A DNA stretch of 35,367 nt. Origin: an uncultured Clostridia bacterium. Lineage in GTDB: Bacteria; Bacillota; Clostridia; Oscillospirales; Ruminococcaceae. The position numbers were made by a program, and so were the translations under genes. The notes beneath the pieces are model-generated. The model was not told where the DNA came from, made no database searches, and saw nothing but the letters and a program-made list of their open reading frames with translations. The stretch spans positions 1-35,367 of the forward strand of contig CAMCFA010000023.1 in NCBI GenBank assembly GCA_945873955.1. The letters run 5' to 3'. Shown piece after piece: positions 16,312 through 35,367 of the stretch (the stretch's first letter is position 1; each line of letters starts with the position of its first letter).

Positions 16312-17943
16312 ATGACAGGACAACCCAAGTACAATACAGCTTTATATCTTCGTCTGTCAAAGGACGACGGCACTATGAACGAGAGTTCAAGCATACAAAC
16401 GCAAAAGGAAATGCTCACACGCTATTGTCGGGAAAACGGCTTTGCAATCAGCCAAATCTACATTGATGACGGCTGGAGCGGAACGAATACCAACAGACCG
16501 AGCTTTCAGCGTATGCTGTCGGATATTGAGGACGGAAAAATCAACTGCGTTATCACAAAAGACCTTTCCCGCCTCGGCAGAAATTACCTTGAAACGGGCA
16601 GTTTTACGGAGATTTATTTCCCCGAGCACAATGTGCGATACATAGCTGTAACGGACGGTGTTGATACCGCAAAAGGCTCTACAATGGACATTACGCCGTT
16701 CAAAAATCTGCTCAACGATATGTATGCGCAGGACATTTCAAAGAAAATCAAGTCCTCGCTGCTGACAAGGCAGAAGCAGGGAAAATTCATCGGCACAAAA
16801 GCTCCCTACGGCTATGTGAAAGACCCTGCGGACAAAAATCATCTGCTGATTGATGAACGCTTTGCGCCTATTGTGAGGTACATTTACAAGCTGGCAAAGG
16901 ACGGTATCGGCATAACGCAAATCGCAAGGCGGCTCACCAAAGAAAAAATCCCTCGTCCCGTTGCTGCGGCTGCCGAGGAATTAGAGTACTATGACAGGTA
17001 TATCACGACCGAGGAAAGCGCATACAAATGGACAATGGGTTCGGTGCGTGAGGTACTCCGTAACCCTGTTTACAAAGGCGCAATTCGTGGGCAGAAACGC
17101 CCTAAAATCTCGCTGAAAAGCGAAAAGAGAAAGCCTGCTCAATCGGCGGGAACATTCGTGGTTGAGGGTATGCACGAAGCGATTATTGACCCCGAAGAAT
17201 GGGAGCTTGTCCAGCGGCTGATTACGAGCAGGAAAAAGGTGCGCAAGGTCGATGTTCAGTATGACAATATCTTTTCGGGCTTGGTGAAATGCGCCGACTG
17301 CGGCTTTGCGCTGACCTATGTAAGAGCGCACAGAAATTGGAACAGTGAGAATATTTACGCAAACTACGACTATCAGTGCAACAACTATCGAATGGAGGGT
17401 AAGTCGGTTTGCACACAGCACAGAATAACTGCTCTGAACCTTTACAATGCGGTTTTAGCGGACATTAAGCGGCTGGCGAATGAAGCTCTCGGAGATGACA
17501 GGCAGATGATTTCCTCAATCGCCGAACGGCTGGGCAAAGCTGAAAAGGACACCGTGCGGCAAGCCGAGCGTGAACTGAAACGAGCGAACAAGCGGCTATC
17601 GGAACTCGACAGGCTGTTTGCAAAGCTTTATGAGGAACACATCAACGGCAAGGTGAGCGAGCGCAATTACAACAGCCTTTCAGCCGCCTACGAAACGGAA
17701 CAGACCGAATTGGAAAGCAGAATAAGCGAACTCAATTCGCTCATAAAGGCAGAGCGTGAGAACGGCGAGAACGCCGAGAATTTCGTTGATTTAATCAAGC
17801 AGTATGCGGACATTGACGAGCTTACGCAGGCTCTCCTCAATACCCTGATTGACAGAATTGAGGTTCACGAGCCTGAAGATGTGGACGGTGAGTTTATTCA
17901 GAAGCTCGATGTTTACTACAAGTTTGTCGGCAGGCTTGATTGA
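16312..17943 (+). CDS. Large serine recombinase (TndX/TnpX type)
   Basis: A complete 543-residue recombinase that integrates and excises a mobile element. Residues 1-150 form the catalytic domain: Ser16 in ALYLRLSKDD, DLSRLGRN, and FKNLLNDMYAQDISKKIKSS. A recombinase domain follows (APYGYVKDPADKNHLLIDE), then a zinc-ribbon with KCADCGFAL and a later C-x(n)-C pair, a long coiled coil (about 395-470) and the conserved end FVDLIKQYADIDELTQALLN. The start has GAAGGAGG upstream. The gene ends at the very edge of its element: within about 30 nt the sequence turns into a truncated yibE/F gene. The C-terminal half is closely similar to the second recombinase at 34604. Confidence 0.95.
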   Translation: MTGQPKYNTALYLRLSKDDGTMNESSSIQTQKEMLTRYCRENGFAISQIYIDDGWSGTNTNRPSFQRMLSDIEDGKINCVITKDLSRLGRNYLETGSFTEIYFPEHNVRYIAVTDGVDTAKGSTMDITPFKNLLNDMYAQDISKKIKSSLLTRQKQGKFIGTKAPYGYVKDPADKNHLLIDERFAPIVRYIYKLAKDGIGITQIARRLTKEKIPRPVAAAAEELEYYDRYITTEESAYKWTMGSVREVLRNPVYKGAIRGQKRPKISLKSEKRKPAQSAGTFVVEGMHEAIIDPEEWELVQRLITSRKKVRKVDVQYDNIFSGLVKCADCGFALTYVRAHRNWNSENIYANYDYQCNNYRMEGKSVCTQHRITALNLYNAVLADIKRLANEALGDDRQMISSIAERLGKAEKDTVRQAERELKRANKRLSELDRLFAKLYEEHINGKVSERNYNSLSAAYETEQTELESRISELNSLIKAERENGENAENFVDLIKQYADIDELTQALLNTLIDRIEVHEPEDVDGEFIQKLDVYYKFVGRLD

Positions 17944-18472: not shown

Positions 18473-18490
18473 CTTCCCTATAATACAAGA

Positions 18491-18521
18491 ACCCCTCGCA
18501 AGTACGGCGCTTGCGAGGGGT
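18491..18521. terminator. Bidirectional terminator between yibE/F fragment and the radical SAM operon
   Basis: A perfect 12-bp stem: ACCCCTCGCAAG (18491-18502) with CTTGCGAGGGGT (18510-18521), a 7-nt loop, and T-rich sequence on the minus strand (TTCTTGTATT). It lies 5 nt beyond the stop of the minus-strand poly-Asn gene. Confidence 0.8.
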
Positions 18522-18526
18522 TATGC

Positions 18527-18883
18527 TTATCCGTTATTGTTGTTGTTATTATTGTTGTTATTGTTGTTTGACGAGGATGAGCTGTCGCTGAAACTCCGCC
18601 CGCGGTCGCCGGGGAGTCGTATTGTGACTGCGTCGCGCTTGATAACAAGAAGCTCCACCTTTGTGCGCAATAAAACAGGCAGAACCTTTTCTGTTTCGCC
18701 GTTGTAATTTGTAAATGTAAGAAACCCGTTGTTGAACGTTATCTTGTTTGCTGGGCTGTGCATTATGAATTTAAAAATCTCGGGAATAAGCCCGGGGTCT
18801 GTCAGCGTGACATATTTCTCGATTGAATGAGCGTTTTTTATTGCCACAATCTCGCGGTAGGTTTCGGGGCGTCCGTTTTTCAT
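18527..18883 (-). CDS. Small protein with Ser5-Asn12-Gly tail, coupled to a radical SAM enzyme
   Basis: A 118-residue protein starting at 18883, where its ATG overlaps the radical SAM stop (ATGA, 4 nt) with AAAGGAT upstream. The first ~100 residues look like a compact beta-rich domain (KYVTLTDPG, NKITFNNGFLTFTNYNG, VELLVIKRDAVTIRL). The protein then ends in a low-complexity tail: SFSD, five Ser, twelve Asn, Gly, stop. The Asn codons mix AAC and AAT (eight AAC, four AAT) and the Ser codons are likewise mixed, so this is not a simple single-triplet expansion. Neighbourhood suggests it is either substrate or partner of the radical SAM/SPASM enzyme. The tail could be a modified core, but a plain flexible tail is equally possible. 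No known family recognised. Confidence 0.75.
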   Translation of the reverse strand: MKNGRPETYREIVAIKNAHSIEKYVTLTDPGLIPEIFKFIMHSPANKITFNNGFLTFTNYNGETEKVLPVLLRTKVELLVIKRDAVTIRLPGDRGRSFSDSSSSSNNNNNNNNNNNNG

Positions 18884-20640
18884 GTCGTTATCCTTTCTTG
18901 GCGGCAGCAGTAAAGCTCAATGTTCTGAAAAGGAAGATTCTGCGCCTGAATATGATAAAATGCGTTGTTCTTGTGTTTAAGGTAGTGATAATCCCGCAGC
19001 GCAGAGGTTGTAAAGAAAAGATTGTTCGGCGTATCCTCCGTCATGCTGTCCGAGTAAATCCGAAGAAGCGCGGACATATCAAAGCAGTAATATCCGTCCT
19101 TGTCCGACGGGTAAGCGGCGAGGGTGTTTCTGAACACCTGATGCGTCATGATGTGCGCCTGCTTTTCCCTGCCCTCGTCACCGTAAACAATAGTGTCGCC
19201 GCTTAAAAGCATTATGTACAGCGAGTTGTTCTGCGGATAATCGCACTCGGCAGCAAGCGCTTCCTTGCGCACATAAAGCTTAACTTCCGACTGCGGGGTA
19301 ATGCAGACTATCTCCCTTTCAATGCGCAGAAGCTGCGAGCAAAGCCTGTGTTCAATTCCGTCAATATTCAGCAGGAACACATCGTCGCTGTAAATATATT
19401 TCAGCCGCTCGTCGCGCGCGATTATTTCCTCAAGCGTTGGCATAGACGGGTCAAGCGTAAACTCCCGCTTGTAGTAACAGTGCGACTGCTGCGGGTGATT
19501 TATCAGCGTGTACCCATACGCTTCGCTTCGCGGGTTTTCGTCTTTCGGATAAAGCGCGGGGGTACGCTCGTAGATTTTGTTTTGCAGCAGGCAGGTGTAG
19601 GATTTCCTTGTCCCGTACAGCTTTTTTACAAAAGGACACCCCGTTCTGCAAAGCCCTAAATAGCCGCATTCGGCGCAATCCTCGGAAAATCCGCATTTGT
19701 TATGCGCCATGAATATTTTCGTGCGCGCGGTATCAAGAATTTCGCTGACGGTGTTTTCGTAGATGTTCCCGTAGAAAAAATCGCTGTTCCCCTGACCTCT
19801 TACGCAGGAGTAAACGTCGCCGTTTCGCTCAAGCAGAAAGAATTTCTCGCCGCAGTTTACGCAGCCTGTGCAGTAGTCGGGGGTGAACTCCGCAAACCAC
19901 GCGCCGTTTACGCCGCGGTCAAGCTCGGTTCCGTCAAATGTGCGGTGCATTTCCTCAAAAAAGCGCGCCTGTTCATCTTCGGTGAGCGGAGAAAGGAGCC
20001 CGCCCTGACCGCCGAAGCCTATCATAAAATTGAAATCGTTCATATCAAGGCAGGAGTTTTTGTGCAGAAATAAAATGTCGTTTTTCAGTTCCTCAAGCCT
20101 GTCAAAATGCTCCTTGAATATCGTTGCGGACACCTTTTTTCGGTTCGGAATACCTCGCAGAAGCTCAATGTTTTCAAGGATTTTCGCGAGGGTGGATTTG
20201 CCGTCTTTAGTAACGCGAAATTCATCATGCAGAGAAAACGGCAGGTCAAGGCTGCCGCTTACGGAAATATTCAGCTCGCGTATTGAGTCAATATGCCTGT
20301 CCAAGCCGAACAGATTCGTTTTGATGTGCGGTCTGCCGACCTGAAAACCGTTTTGCTCCAAAACCGCTCTGTGCTTATCGTAATAGTCGGCTATAAATGC
20401 CGCCGTATTGCGGAAATCCTGCTTGGAAAGACAAGTAACCTCGCCGCCGTGCAGCGAGATATTAAACGGCATTACGCCCTCGTTCAGCAGCTTTTCCACA
20501 GCGTATTCCAACGTTTCAACGCAGCCGCGTTCGCTTTCGCTGTCGGAGGTTTTGTCGCCAAGATAGCAATATTTGCAGCTCATATTGCAGTTCATGGTCG
20601 GCACATATAAAAGATGAATGAATTTCTCCGCGCTATCCAT
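18880..20640 (-). CDS. Radical SAM/SPASM domain protein, putative peptide or protein maturase
   Basis: A 586-residue enzyme. Start 20640 (MDSAEKF) is chosen because GAGGTGG precedes it; the ATG overlaps the stop of the LRR gene. The [4Fe-4S] motif is Cys18, Cys22, Cys25 in TMNCNMSCKYCYLG, followed by ISLHGGEV. From about residue 250 a SPASM-type Cys-rich region holds CTGCVNCGEKFFLLERNGDV and later SCVRG, CGFSEDCAECGYLGLCRTGC and a final Cys before NKIYER. The last ~190 residues are an extra domain of unknown fold. SPASM proteins use auxiliary iron-sulfur clusters and mostly modify peptides (RiPPs) or proteins. The tight coupling to the poly-Asn-tailed gene downstream and the LRR membrane gene upstream suggests one pathway. 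Confidence 0.9.
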   Translation of the reverse strand: MDSAEKFIHLLYVPTMNCNMSCKYCYLGDKTSDSESERGCVETLEYAVEKLLNEGVMPFNISLHGGEVTCLSKQDFRNTAAFIADYYDKHRAVLEQNGFQVGRPHIKTNLFGLDRHIDSIRELNISVSGSLDLPFSLHDEFRVTKDGKSTLAKILENIELLRGIPNRKKVSATIFKEHFDRLEELKNDILFLHKNSCLDMNDFNFMIGFGGQGGLLSPLTEDEQARFFEEMHRTFDGTELDRGVNGAWFAEFTPDYCTGCVNCGEKFFLLERNGDVYSCVRGQGNSDFFYGNIYENTVSEILDTARTKIFMAHNKCGFSEDCAECGYLGLCRTGCPFVKKLYGTRKSYTCLLQNKIYERTPALYPKDENPRSEAYGYTLINHPQQSHCYYKREFTLDPSMPTLEEIIARDERLKYIYSDDVFLLNIDGIEHRLCSQLLRIEREIVCITPQSEVKLYVRKEALAAECDYPQNNSLYIMLLSGDTIVYGDEGREKQAHIMTHQVFRNTLAAYPSDKDGYYCFDMSALLRIYSDSMTEDTPNNLFFTTSALRDYHYLKHKNNAFYHIQAQNLPFQNIELYCCRQERITT

Positions 20641-21748
20641 TTTCCACCTCAAAATACGTGATTGTTATCGGGCTATCCTTGAATGTACGCTCGTTTACCG
20701 TGCAGCCCTCAGGCAGAGCCATGCTTTCCAATCGGTCGCAATCTCTGAATGCAGAGCTGCCTATTTCCGTTACGGTTCGGGGAACGATGACTTCATAAAG
20801 CGAGTTGCAGTCGAAAAACGCTCTTGCGGCAATCCTCGTTACTCCCTCGGGGATATCTATGCGCATAAGGTTATAGCAGCCGTTAAAGGTGCTTTCGTGT
20901 ATCTCGGTTATTCCGTGCGGGAGAGTGATTTCCCTGAGGCTTTCGCAGCCCATAAAGCTCTGCGCGTGAATATCCGTGATATTGTCGTGAAGCAAAACGC
21001 TTTGCAGGCTCTTGCAGTTGTGGAAAGTGTCGCCGCGTATCTCTGTAACAAGCGGCGGGATTTCAACACTTTTCAGACCAACGCAGTTCATAAATGCCTC
21101 GCCCTCAATAAAGGTAATGGAATCGGGGAACTCAATGCTTCGCAAAAAGTAATTGTTTTTATATGCTCCGCTTTTTATTCCCACAACAGGCTCGCCGTTA
21201 TGATACTGTTCAACGCTCTGCTTTCCCTCTAAACCTGTTCTGCAAAGGCTTACGGCATAGCCGCCCTCGGTGTGCGTATAAATTGTAAACGGCACGAAAA
21301 AGTATACCGATACTCCCGCAATCAGCAGCCCGAAAGCGGAACCAATCGTTGCTTTTATAATTGTATGTCTGCGTTTTATCCGGCGGAAAGCCGATGAATC
21401 ACACTCCTCGCATACGCATATTTCAGAAATGATAGTTGAGATTTTTTTATCGGGGGCTTTCTTGGATTCGTGAGCAATCAGCGCTGCGAGTTTATTCTCC
21501 GAAAAGAACAGCACCAGGCTTACTATCAGCACAGCGCAGGCAAAAAAGATTGCAGGAGCGGCAAGCCTGCATAATAACCCGAACAGTACAATCACTATCG
21601 GGAATACTAAACAGTTGAAGATTCGGTACGCGACAAATCCCGGCAGTTTTTTGGACGACACTTTTTTGCCGCGGTACATTTCATCAAGCTCCTGTGAAAT
21701 CAATTGTTTCAGAATACTGTCTGCGCTCTTCTCCGAATAATAGCTCAT
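20633..21748 (-). CDS. Membrane protein with BspA-type leucine-rich repeats
   Basis: A 371-residue protein. Start 21748 (MSYYSEKSAD) has GAAAGGAGC upstream, unlike the longer in-frame start at 21796. Residues about 40-86 are two transmembrane segments (FNCLVFPIVIVLFGLLC and APAIFFACAVLIVSLVLFF) and about 135-158 a third (GSAFGLLIAGVSVYFFVPF). A Cys pair in ICVCEECDSS lies in the loop between. From about 185 onward are LRR_5 repeats of roughly 23 residues (pattern I..AF..C.SL..I.IP..VT.I). The repeats are predicted to face outside and bind a ligand. The gene is first in the operon with the radical SAM enzyme and the Asn-tailed protein. Its role there is unknown: receptor, anchor or substrate are all possible. 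Confidence 0.85.
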   Translation of the reverse strand: MSYYSEKSADSILKQLISQELDEMYRGKKVSSKKLPGFVAYRIFNCLVFPIVIVLFGLLCRLAAPAIFFACAVLIVSLVLFFSENKLAALIAHESKKAPDKKISTIISEICVCEECDSSAFRRIKRRHTIIKATIGSAFGLLIAGVSVYFFVPFTIYTHTEGGYAVSLCRTGLEGKQSVEQYHNGEPVVGIKSGAYKNNYFLRSIEFPDSITFIEGEAFMNCVGLKSVEIPPLVTEIRGDTFHNCKSLQSVLLHDNITDIHAQSFMGCESLREITLPHGITEIHESTFNGCYNLMRIDIPEGVTRIAARAFFDCNSLYEVIVPRTVTEIGSSAFRDCDRLESMALPEGCTVNERTFKDSPITITYFEVENG

Positions 21749-28012: not shown

Positions 28013-29422
28013 ATGGCATCGGTTGAAAAACGAGGCAAGGGTTATCGCTTCAGAGAGTCAAACGGCTTCGACCCCAAAACCGGCAAGCGGCGATTCTATG
28101 AGAAAAACTGGCTACCGCCGATAGGCATGACCGAGCTCCAGATTCATAAAGAAGTTTTCCGACAAAAGGTACTGTTTGAGGAAGAGTGCAGGCGGCAGGG
28201 CAAGCTTGACCAACACATGACCTTTTCGGAGTTTACGGACTACTGGAACAAAAACTACGCTTCGGGCAATCTGAAAAGCACTACCCTATCGCAATACACA
28301 CTGCTCCAAAAACGCATTGAGCCTGCTCTCGGGCATTTGCGAATGGAGCAGATAGGACCGGAGCACATAAACGCTTTTATGGATATGCTGAAGCAGGAGG
28401 GAATCCGAGTTGACGGCGTTTATATCTGTCAGGTGGATTTTGACAAGTTCATCAGGGACAACGATATCTGTCGGCAACGGCTGTGTGACGCTACCAACAT
28501 CGGCACTTCCACTCTCGAAAAGCTCTGCAAGGACGGCAGGGTCAGCAAAACTACCGCCGAAAAGCTCTGCGCTGCTATTGAGGTAGAGGTTGAAACACTG
28601 TTCCGACCGGAAGCGCTGACCAAGCCGCTCTCGCAAAAAACTCTTCTGCACTACTTTCGGCTGCTCCGCTCAATGTTTGAAAAGGCGGTTCGCTGGAACA
28701 TTGTTTACAGCAACCCCTGCGACAGAGTTGACCCACCAAAGCTGAAACGCAAGGAAGCGCGTTATCTCACCGAGGACGAAACCAAGCAGCTGATGGACGC
28801 TCTTGAAAAAGCTCCCTCGCAATACCGAATGATGGTGTATCTGATGATCTGCACCGGAGCAAGGCGCGGTGAGATATGTGGGCTTGAATGGAGCGATGTC
28901 AACTGGGAGACCGGCAAGATACACATTCAGCGCAACTCGCTTTATCTTCCCGAGGTGGGAATGTATGAGGATACCCCGAAAACCGAAAGCTCTGACCGTA
29001 TCGTCAGCATTTCAGAATCCGTAATGGATATGCTGCGGGAGTTCAAGGCGGAACAGGACAGAACCAAGGAGCTTATGGGCGAAGCGTGGGAGGAGCACAA
29101 CAAAATCTTCACGCAGTTCAGAGGCAAGCCCATCCATCCGCTCACCATTACCAAGTGGCTGTCAAAGTTCTGCAAGGACAACGGACTACCACACACTACT
29201 CCGCACATGCTGCGGCACACCTCGGCAACTCTCCTGCTTATGCAGGGACTGCCAATAAAGGCTGTTTCAAAGCGGCTCGGACACGCTCAGGTTTCCACAA
29301 CGGGAGATATTTACGGGCATAGCCTGGCTTCCGTTGACGAGATAGCCGCCGACGCTCTTGACAACATGCTTAACCCCTCGGACACGCTTCGCCGTAAATG
29401 TGATAACGACAGCGGCAAGTAG
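28013..29422 (+). CDS. Tyrosine recombinase (integrase) with an inserted HTH segment
   Basis: A 469-residue phage-type integrase. An N-terminal AP2-like arm-binding region (EKRGKGYRFRESNGFDPKTG) is followed by a core-binding domain (MTFSEFTDYWNKNYASG). The catalytic domain shows Arg284 in TGARRGEICGLEW, His401 and Arg404 in HMLRHTSATL, GHAQVSTT and the nucleophile Tyr434 in DIYGHS. The set is complete, so the enzyme should be active. Unusually, about 60 extra residues (143-202; FDKFIRDNDICRQRLCDATN, then STLEKLCKDGRVSKTTAEKL) interrupt the core-binding domain and look like an XRE-type helix-turn-helix. AAAGAGGTGAT precedes the start. Two hairpins follow the gene. Confidence 0.95.
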   Translation: MASVEKRGKGYRFRESNGFDPKTGKRRFYEKNWLPPIGMTELQIHKEVFRQKVLFEEECRRQGKLDQHMTFSEFTDYWNKNYASGNLKSTTLSQYTLLQKRIEPALGHLRMEQIGPEHINAFMDMLKQEGIRVDGVYICQVDFDKFIRDNDICRQRLCDATNIGTSTLEKLCKDGRVSKTTAEKLCAAIEVEVETLFRPEALTKPLSQKTLLHYFRLLRSMFEKAVRWNIVYSNPCDRVDPPKLKRKEARYLTEDETKQLMDALEKAPSQYRMMVYLMICTGARRGEICGLEWSDVNWETGKIHIQRNSLYLPEVGMYEDTPKTESSDRIVSISESVMDMLREFKAEQDRTKELMGEAWEEHNKIFTQFRGKPIHPLTITKWLSKFCKDNGLPHTTPHMLRHTSATLLLMQGLPIKAVSKRLGHAQVSTTGDIYGHSLASVDEIAADALDNMLNPSDTLRRKCDNDSGK

Positions 29423-34603: not shown

Positions 34604-35367
34604 TCAGTCAATAATCCCGACGAATTTGTAGAAAACATCAATCTTCTGCACAAACTCGCCGTTGATTTCTTCGGGTTCGTGAACCTCAATCCTGTCGATT
34701 AAGGTATTTAGCAGAGCCTGCGTCAACTCGTCGATGTCCGCATAGCGTTTAATCAGCTCCACAAAATTAGCGGCATTTTCGCTGTTCGCACGGCTTGTTC
34801 CGATTGTCTTTTCGTACTCGCCGACAGCCGTTTCAAGTTTGCTCTGCTCCTTTTCGTAAGCCGCAACAAGCGTGTTGTAGTTGCGGTCGGAAATCTCGCC
34901 TTTTGCGTGTTCCTCGTAGGTTTTCACGAACATTGTGTCAAGCTCCGCAAGCCGTTTCCGAGCCTTTTTAATCTCACGTTCAGCTTGACGAACACCGTCT
35001 TTTTCGGCTTTTCCAAGCCTTGCCGCAATTTGCGAAATCATCTTCTCGTCATTCTTTACGGCTAACTTTGCGAGCCGCTGAATATCCGCCAAAACCGCAT
35101 TGTAAAGGTCGATTGCGGCTATTCTGTGCTTACTGCAATTTTTTGAGTTCTCACGATGAATACGGCAGTAATAATCGTGATTTTCGCGAGGGTCTGCCTT
35201 TTTCGTCCTGCCCGAACGGTACGGAATAAGCGCATAACCGCAGTCGGCGCACTTCACCAAGCCCGAAAAGATGTTGTCATATTTAGCGCAGTCGCCTTTG
35301 TCGCACTTCTTGCGGCTTGTTATCATTCGCTGAATTATCTCCCAACGCTCAGACTCAATTATAGGCT
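34604..35367 (-). CDS. Large serine recombinase, C-terminal part (5' end outside window)
   Basis: About 254 residues of the C-terminal half of a TndX/TnpX-type large serine recombinase. The frame is open to the window edge (PIIESERWEIIQRMITSRKK), so the gene continues beyond it. Visible are the zinc ribbon (KCADCGYAL with later YYC and NCSKH), the coiled coil (RLGKAEKDGVRQAEREIKKA onward) and the conserved end YADIDELTQALLN then VFYKFVGIID. It is closely similar to residues ~300-543 of the recombinase at 16312 but differs in the zinc-ribbon insert and coiled coil, so it is a relative and not a copy. It ends at the junction with the interrupted aldo/keto reductase. Confidence 0.93.
   Translation of the reverse strand, partial: PIIESERWEIIQRMITSRKKCDKGDCAKYDNIFSGLVKCADCGYALIPYRSGRTKKADPRENHDYYCRIHRENSKNCSKHRIAAIDLYNAVLADIQRLAKLAVKNDEKMISQIAARLGKAEKDGVRQAEREIKKARKRLAELDTMFVKTYEEHAKGEISDRNYNTLVAAYEKEQSKLETAVGEYEKTIGTSRANSENAANFVELIKRYADIDELTQALLNTLIDRIEVHEPEEINGEFVQKIDVFYKFVGIID

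Follow-up and report, generated by a model that had tools for sequence, protein, structure and literature searches.

Enzymes of the radical S-adenosylmethionine (SAM)/SPASM superfamily are already known to modify linked substrates, and the closest described systems frame the one that we report here from a 35,367-nucleotide stretch of an uncultured Clostridia bacterium (contig CAMCFA010000023.1; the whole stretch is hereafter the window), namely a minus-strand operon that couples such an enzyme to a small carrier protein ending in a homopolymeric asparagine (Asn) tail and to a leucine-rich repeat (LRR) membrane protein. PMC11002830 describes the C-beta atom of Asn as a radical SAM target in a Cys-Asn ranthipeptide, in the XncB/OscB cyclophanes and in dynobactin, which has a C-N cross-link besides its Trp-Asn C-beta bond. 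In the same paper the polycyclopropylglycine maturase TvgB, a radical SAM enzyme of the anSME subfamily that we liken by description, acts in many rounds on one repeated residue, there the Val of Thr-Val-Gly-Gly repeats as against the Asn homopolymer here. Asn-directed peptide modification is also what the system has in common with the proteusin enzymes PoyD, an epimerase again likened by description, and PoyE; however, an earlier sequence-only reading of the window, which had listed methylation among the Asn-directed radical SAM chemistries of proteusins, needs correction on this point, since the review PMC11285071 ascribes the Asn N-methylation of polytheonamide to PoyE, a side-chain N-methyltransferase, and lists PoyB and PoyC separately as radical SAM C-methyltransferases. 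The open-licence full-text literature, judged by titles and the openings of abstracts and in one case by parts of the text, yielded no description of poly-Asn with radical SAM, of radical SAM with LRR/BspA proteins or of radical SAM with tail fibers, nor of a homopolymeric Asn target, its sharing by cellular carriers and phage fiber tips, or the enzyme subfamily itself. The recurrent pairing of enzyme and Asn tail, seen in bacteria of gut and rumen and in some Campylobacter phages, suggests that protein tips undergo a chemical modification not yet described.

One line of evidence for this proposal is the constancy of the tail beside the enzyme. Scanning genome contigs with the window enzyme recovered 92 relatives, of which 80 were kept; 79 of these share 51-59% identity with it and the last one 47%, in alignments that cover the enzyme largely or entirely, and they span Bacillota, Bacteroidota, Actinomycetota and a lineage with UGA as a Gly codon. 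At least five Asn codons lie just downstream of the enzyme gene at 72 of the 80 loci, and two further tails, read by hand under table 4 (L057 and L071), bring the count to 74/80; at the remaining six (L010, L043, L055, L061, L076 and L081) the contig stops 3-403 nt past the enzyme, so that none of the 80 loci shows the enzyme kept beside a neighbor that had lost its tail. Eight of the 72 contigs (L014, L016, L022, L033, L048, L053, L054 and L070, all metagenomic) end inside the Asn tract or immediately past it, and assemblies and gene finders may therefore often miss the carrier gene. The other 64 tails are complete. Tracts are mostly 10-18 Asn long (that of L015 is N13, the automatic tract listing having taken an internal N5 run instead), and in 61 of 65 complete tails, the window included, they are terminal or have just one more residue after them (R, G, H, S or A). 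Identity of the carriers to the window small protein is 23-38% with the tail counted in, and their near-invariant columns cluster chiefly in the tail, so that the poly-Asn is more strongly conserved than the protein that bears it. None of 537 other open reading frames (ORFs) of at least 100 aa at these loci, a set that omits L021, L024, L043, L046, L071, L076 and L081, ends in NNNN with or without one further residue. The codons tell the same story: AAC and AAT are mixed in all 73 tracts examined, and in 68 tracts shuffled internally the longest same-codon run is 3.10 against 4.09 in the shuffles, 0 of 5000 of which came as low. As AAC and AAT alternate beyond chance, the protein sequence of the tail appears to be selected, and we read this alternation as selection for uninterrupted Asn while avoiding slippage. 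The linked substrate, with a folded domain as the putative docking part and a tail as the putative core at 74/80 loci, is organized like those of ribosomally synthesized and post-translationally modified peptides. The earlier suggestion that the Asn tail of the coupled small protein is a candidate modified core is supported.

Genome surveys give the converse view. Among 291 genomes of the window's class (Clostridia), a genome-wide search found the enzyme in two, and (AAY)9 occurs in 19; with one place read in each of the 19 (further separate places in G203, G271 and G342 were left out), at most one residue follows the tract only in the two enzyme genomes. In the order of L029, 241 genomes hold the enzyme in 12, the tail pattern in 18 and both in 11; in one of these 11 (G461) the tail is on another contig, visible only at the contig edge, in G555 the enzyme is present and the contig stops 338 nt past the match, and in G525 a carrier lies near the contig start with the C-terminal motif of the enzyme upstream. 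The other six pattern hits in this order are non-carriers (four frames of 8-21 aa, L145 and L148). All 11 whole carriers opened have the enzyme motif upstream and a twelfth tail stands at a contig end; a tailed carrier without the enzyme, which the sequence-only reading had named as a counter-case, was found in neither survey, and the opened loci of both revealed no lineage that keeps a tailed carrier after loss of the enzyme. Carriers track the enzyme, though proteins that merely end in an Asn run also occur in genomes that lack it.

The strongest support comes from outside the window, from phages, and is independent of the cellular loci. Radical SAM genes are also a feature of the Campylobacter phages CP220 and CPt10, which we take to be T4-like. 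These encode 11 and 12 radical SAM proteins, for which the available part of the source (PMC2853527) mentions no link to fibers, and in the phage collection Campylobacter phage CAM-P21 alone gave a match that covers 80% or more of the window enzyme. With plasmids searched at E up to 1e-20 and phages at E up to 0.01, the sole other match of that extent is a Campylobacter coli plasmid record. The CAM-P21 homolog (31.8% identity over 97%) sits in a contractile-tail module, Mu-like in our reading, after the tail fiber gene and a 211-aa gene, and the fiber (Pfam PF12571) has the C-terminus SGSTNNNNY. Viral contigs yielded further loci, giving 15 distinct enzyme-bearing ones (L163-L174, L185, L238 and L239), and at 14 of these the protein in the fiber position ends in Asn-rich form (NNNNY in nine, NNF/NNS in four and NNNNN in one), the exception being L239. 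With the last eight residues set aside, the preceding 72-residue stretch has 14-25% identity among the three tip types compared, and the Asn end thus recurs on several unrelated tips. Fisher values computed for the tips cover 13 of the 15 loci and take no account of relatedness, and they carry no weight here. Conversely, 26 loci found by the fiber protein comprise seven with the enzyme, two cut fibers (L182 and L183, excluded) and 17 with a complete fiber and no enzyme; these 17 have the same stalk, a 164-168-aa gene downstream instead, and an Asn-run end in none. Since the enzyme-less fibers share the stalk and differ in their end and downstream gene, the fiber end, the 211-aa gene and the enzyme seem to be swapped together as one cassette, and the contrast of 14/15 with 0/17 makes the C-terminal oligo-Asn very probably the substrate.

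The enzyme itself is a clear superfamily member. Pfam Radical_SAM scores 36.9 bits (cut-off 29.5), Pfam SPASM 20.1 bits (just below 21.5) and the NCBIfam SPASM domain TIGR04085 40.7 bits (cut-off 27), and the CX3CX2C motif (C17, C21, C24) and eight SPASM Cys are invariant in alignments A2 (45 rows, mean column identity 61%) and A3 (18 rows, including four phage sequences). None of the named NCBIfam radical SAM equivalog or subfamily cut-offs is passed among the best 25 of 56 matches of the window enzyme; the same holds for the 25 matches listed for the L029 enzyme, and the domain model TIGR04085 alone passes. An anaerobic sulfatase maturase is the closest solved fold among the matches listed, yet identity with this family (anSMEcpe, PDB 4k36-4k39; TIGR03942) was rejected at 89.1 bits against a cut-off of 349, and unlike anSMEcpe the window enzyme has an extra C-terminal domain of ~220 residues and an Asn-tailed carrier in its operon. 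A DynA/DarE maturase was likewise rejected: DynA is the top NCBIfam match of the window enzyme and the second of the L029 enzyme, but the scores (NF041298, 94.5 of 450 bits; NF038005, 63.6 of 650 bits) are far under the cut-offs, and in contrast to those systems the tails here are without Trp and the carrier has a folded domain. A three-residue cyclophane maturase, which requires an aromatic core residue, does not suit the cellular tails, 61/65 of which end otherwise; Y or F does follow Asn at phage ends, unlike in most cellular tails. The PHROG 1802 profile, annotated only as a radical SAM domain-containing protein, scores the Campylobacter enzyme at 475 bits near full length and the window enzyme at 125 bits over profile positions 49-548 of 556. 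The C-terminal domain is conserved in cellular and phage members alike, with N471, G480, Y485, G486, E488, R490, K492, H495, T543, T544, R548, H551, Y552, K554, N558, Y561 and P569 invariant in A3; its structure model is confident for the most part, and solved structures scarcely cover it among the matches listed.

Taken together, we propose that the small protein would be a ribosomally made substrate, composed of a docking domain of ~92 residues, a linker and the C-terminal oligo-Asn tail, and that the enzyme of the same operon would be its maturase, probably docking the carrier through the extra C-terminal domain. The folded domain of the carrier, or the fiber, would present the flexible tail to the enzyme, which would abstract hydrogen from the Asn residues (at C-beta, as a guess) and use its two SPASM clusters for two-electron oxidation, one residue after another, to give a stiffened, altered tip. 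In cells the modified carrier would act with the LRR protein, and since the same enzyme family probably finishes phage tail-fiber tips, the modified tip may serve surface contact, a role that we hold to be evenly balanced between right and wrong. That some modification occurs is highly probable from the gene associations and that the Asn residues are its site very likely, whereas the explanation as a whole, with carrier as substrate and enzyme as maturase, we consider likely. C-beta oxidation or side-chain cross-linking is a tentative assignment by analogy, which may well prove wrong. It is speculative, and on balance rather doubtful, that bacteria and phages share a radical SAM chemistry turning oligo-Asn into a cross-linked or oxidized tip as a general finishing of surface-touching proteins, be they fiber tips or, in gut bacteria, a carrier that works alongside an LRR protein outside the cell. 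It is unusual for an enzyme substrate to be a homopolymer that is retained from Bacillota to Actinomycetota and recurs on phage fibers; if the proposal is true, it would add a new post-translational modification of phage fiber tips and a short tag that is a directly testable substrate for new enzyme chemistry, the newness of which depends on whether the reaction is oxidation/cross-linking or epimerization.

Several observations weigh against this proposal. In 15 of the 537 other ORFs (one of them being the L060 carrier itself) NN is terminal or has a single residue after it, which leaves the four NNF/NNS phage ends weak singly; many phage loci are near-identical, so that 14/15 amounts to some four kinds of tip; and among the 17 enzyme-less fibers, L181, L190 and L192 have 3' flanks shorter than 1.3 kb. 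Tails in cellular genomes are in some cases short or broken (N5-SS-N3-IG downstream in L031, N5 in L067 and N6 in L019) or interrupted by K, H or T (L024, L049, L060 and L082). Genomes without the enzyme hold a 512-aa frame with a near-terminal N10SGD, three residues following the tract (L086), a 101-aa frame of an unrelated small protein ending N9TN7TN (L089, a 3027-base locus), an unrelated 308-aa frame ending N7Q, all AAT (L145), and an unrelated 108-aa stop-to-stop frame ending N8Y (L148); an Asn tail alone therefore does not imply the enzyme. The Asp after a SPASM Cys in anSMEcpe (CDF), presumably its catalytic base, is not conserved, aligning to CVR in the window enzyme and CHR in the phage enzyme, and the sulfatase-maturase reaction is thus not expected. 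Finally, L239 has a full-length homolog (33%) with nearby fiber-like proteins that lack an Asn end, one of them Cys-rich. On this large viral contig (L239:3767-4378) the homolog has as a neighbor a 167-aa protein whose C-terminus is Cys-rich, and a putative 34-codon ORF, which may or may not be a gene, ends TNNSNH; the locus possibly has another substrate type.

Other explanations must account for the same facts. The enzyme might epimerize Asn from L to D as in proteusins, giving a D/L oligo-Asn of new shape and protease resistance at no change in mass; we regard this as unlikely and favor C-beta oxidation with cross-linking, because attack on Asn C-beta is known elsewhere and TvgB acts repeatedly. 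Alternatively, the oligo-Asn could be an unmodified handle by which the enzyme binds, while the alteration falls on the LRR protein or on some other portion of the fiber, as the linkage of the LRR gene at 72/78 loci and the size of the fiber, far larger than its tip, might suggest; but six of the 78 loci are without a found LRR gene and none is annotated beside the phage enzymes, the fiber tip types have little in common except their end, and a near-pure homopolymer of 12-20 residues is hardly needed for binding, which renders this option quite improbable. A third reading takes the poly-Asn for a simple-sequence expansion, or for a disordered, prion-like tail that stays unmodified, and the operon link for incidental; it would fit the 19/291 Clostridia genomes with poly-Asn of at least nine and the few unrelated frames that end in Asn runs without the enzyme, yet it is at odds with codon mixing beyond chance, with the tail at 74/80 enzyme loci and with its recurrence on phage fibers that have the enzyme and not on those that lack it, and we judge it highly improbable.

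In the window, the ORF calls bear out the overlap of the three genes (20633/20640 and 18880/18883) and the Ser5-Asn12-Gly end that had been read from the sequence; the features are collected in the table, with the enzyme ATG at 20640 and the numbering of alignments and models starting one codon later, at 20637. AlphaFold2 gives the small protein a mean pLDDT of 89-96 per block for residues 11-90 and 48-61 for residues 91-118. The terminator scan found six such sites against 4.9 in shuffles, and the terminator match alone is thus not significant. The window genome (3.47 Mb, 172 contigs) has one carrier match and one enzyme match.

Table. Features of the Asn-tail operon in the window
Feature	Position	Strand	Description
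LRR membrane protein gene	20633-21748	minus	371 aa; N-terminal half with hydrophobic segments, BspA-type LRR (LRR_5) at C-terminus
Radical SAM/SPASM enzyme gene	18880-20640	minus	586 aa; anSME-like catalytic part plus extra conserved C-terminal domain
SPASM region	19591-19872	minus	invariant C256, C262, C278, C321, C324, C330, C334, C349 (A2, A3)
Enzyme C-terminal domain	18883-19542	minus	~residues 366-585; conserved in cellular and phage members
Small protein gene	18527-18883	minus	118 aa; C-terminus SSSSS-N12-G
Folded domain of small protein, probable docking part	18608-18883	minus	~residues 1-92
Linker of small protein, including Ser5	18569-18607	minus	from sequence; Ser/Gly-rich linkers in relatives
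Asn12 tract, proposed modification site	18533-18568	minus	mixed AAC/AAT; Gly and stop at 18527-18532
Terminator-like stem-loop 3' of small protein gene	18490-18522	minus	13-bp stem; consensus match only

The LRR protein is of the BspA type (Pfam LRR_5, 211 bits). In the 80 loci plus the window, 78 have at least 1.5 kb of upstream flank, and the LRR gene lies directly upstream of the enzyme at 70 of them (six lying outside the automatic filter and read from its rows) and downstream at two; its proposed coupling to the pair thus holds as a frequent association (72/78) and not as an obligatory one, no LRR gene being found at L023, L046, L054, L058, L059 and L066. A fourth gene, for a membrane protein with zinc-ribbon motifs (7112-8125 in L029, where no Pfam model reaches its cut-off), comes next in 42 of the 64 loci that have 1.5 kb or more of downstream sequence, and is absent from the window. 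From charge and hydrophobicity, by eye, we read the LRR as lying outside the cell and the zinc ribbons inside. Neighbor clustering (seven of the 80 loci left out) returned the four operon genes as large clusters, the next having 7 ORFs in 6 loci. In the genome of L031, a frame resembling a carrier, in which GCTSCGGSRNNNK precedes N9-G, is located upstream of the enzyme (L160:6501-6903), and a second frame bearing Cys and Asn lies downstream.

In the tree, two Eggerthellaceae enzymes group with that of the window (support 94/93), and the tails at these three loci all end in Asn-Gly; the UGA=Gly loci are placed among Bacillota enzymes. Horizontal transfer of the system is likely. Window ORFs at 16312-17943 (+), 28013-29422 (+) and 34604-35326 (-) resemble, by eye, serine recombinases and a tyrosine integrase, which suggests a mobile island around the operon. 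The enzyme genes of L057 and L071 (5001-6704) carry in-frame TGA, 16/16 at columns in which Gly is commonest, and UGA is probably read there as Gly, as in code 25 lineages; the L057 genome also has a 74-nt tRNA with anticodon TCA (L222:346-419, minus strand), labelled SeC by ARAGORN.

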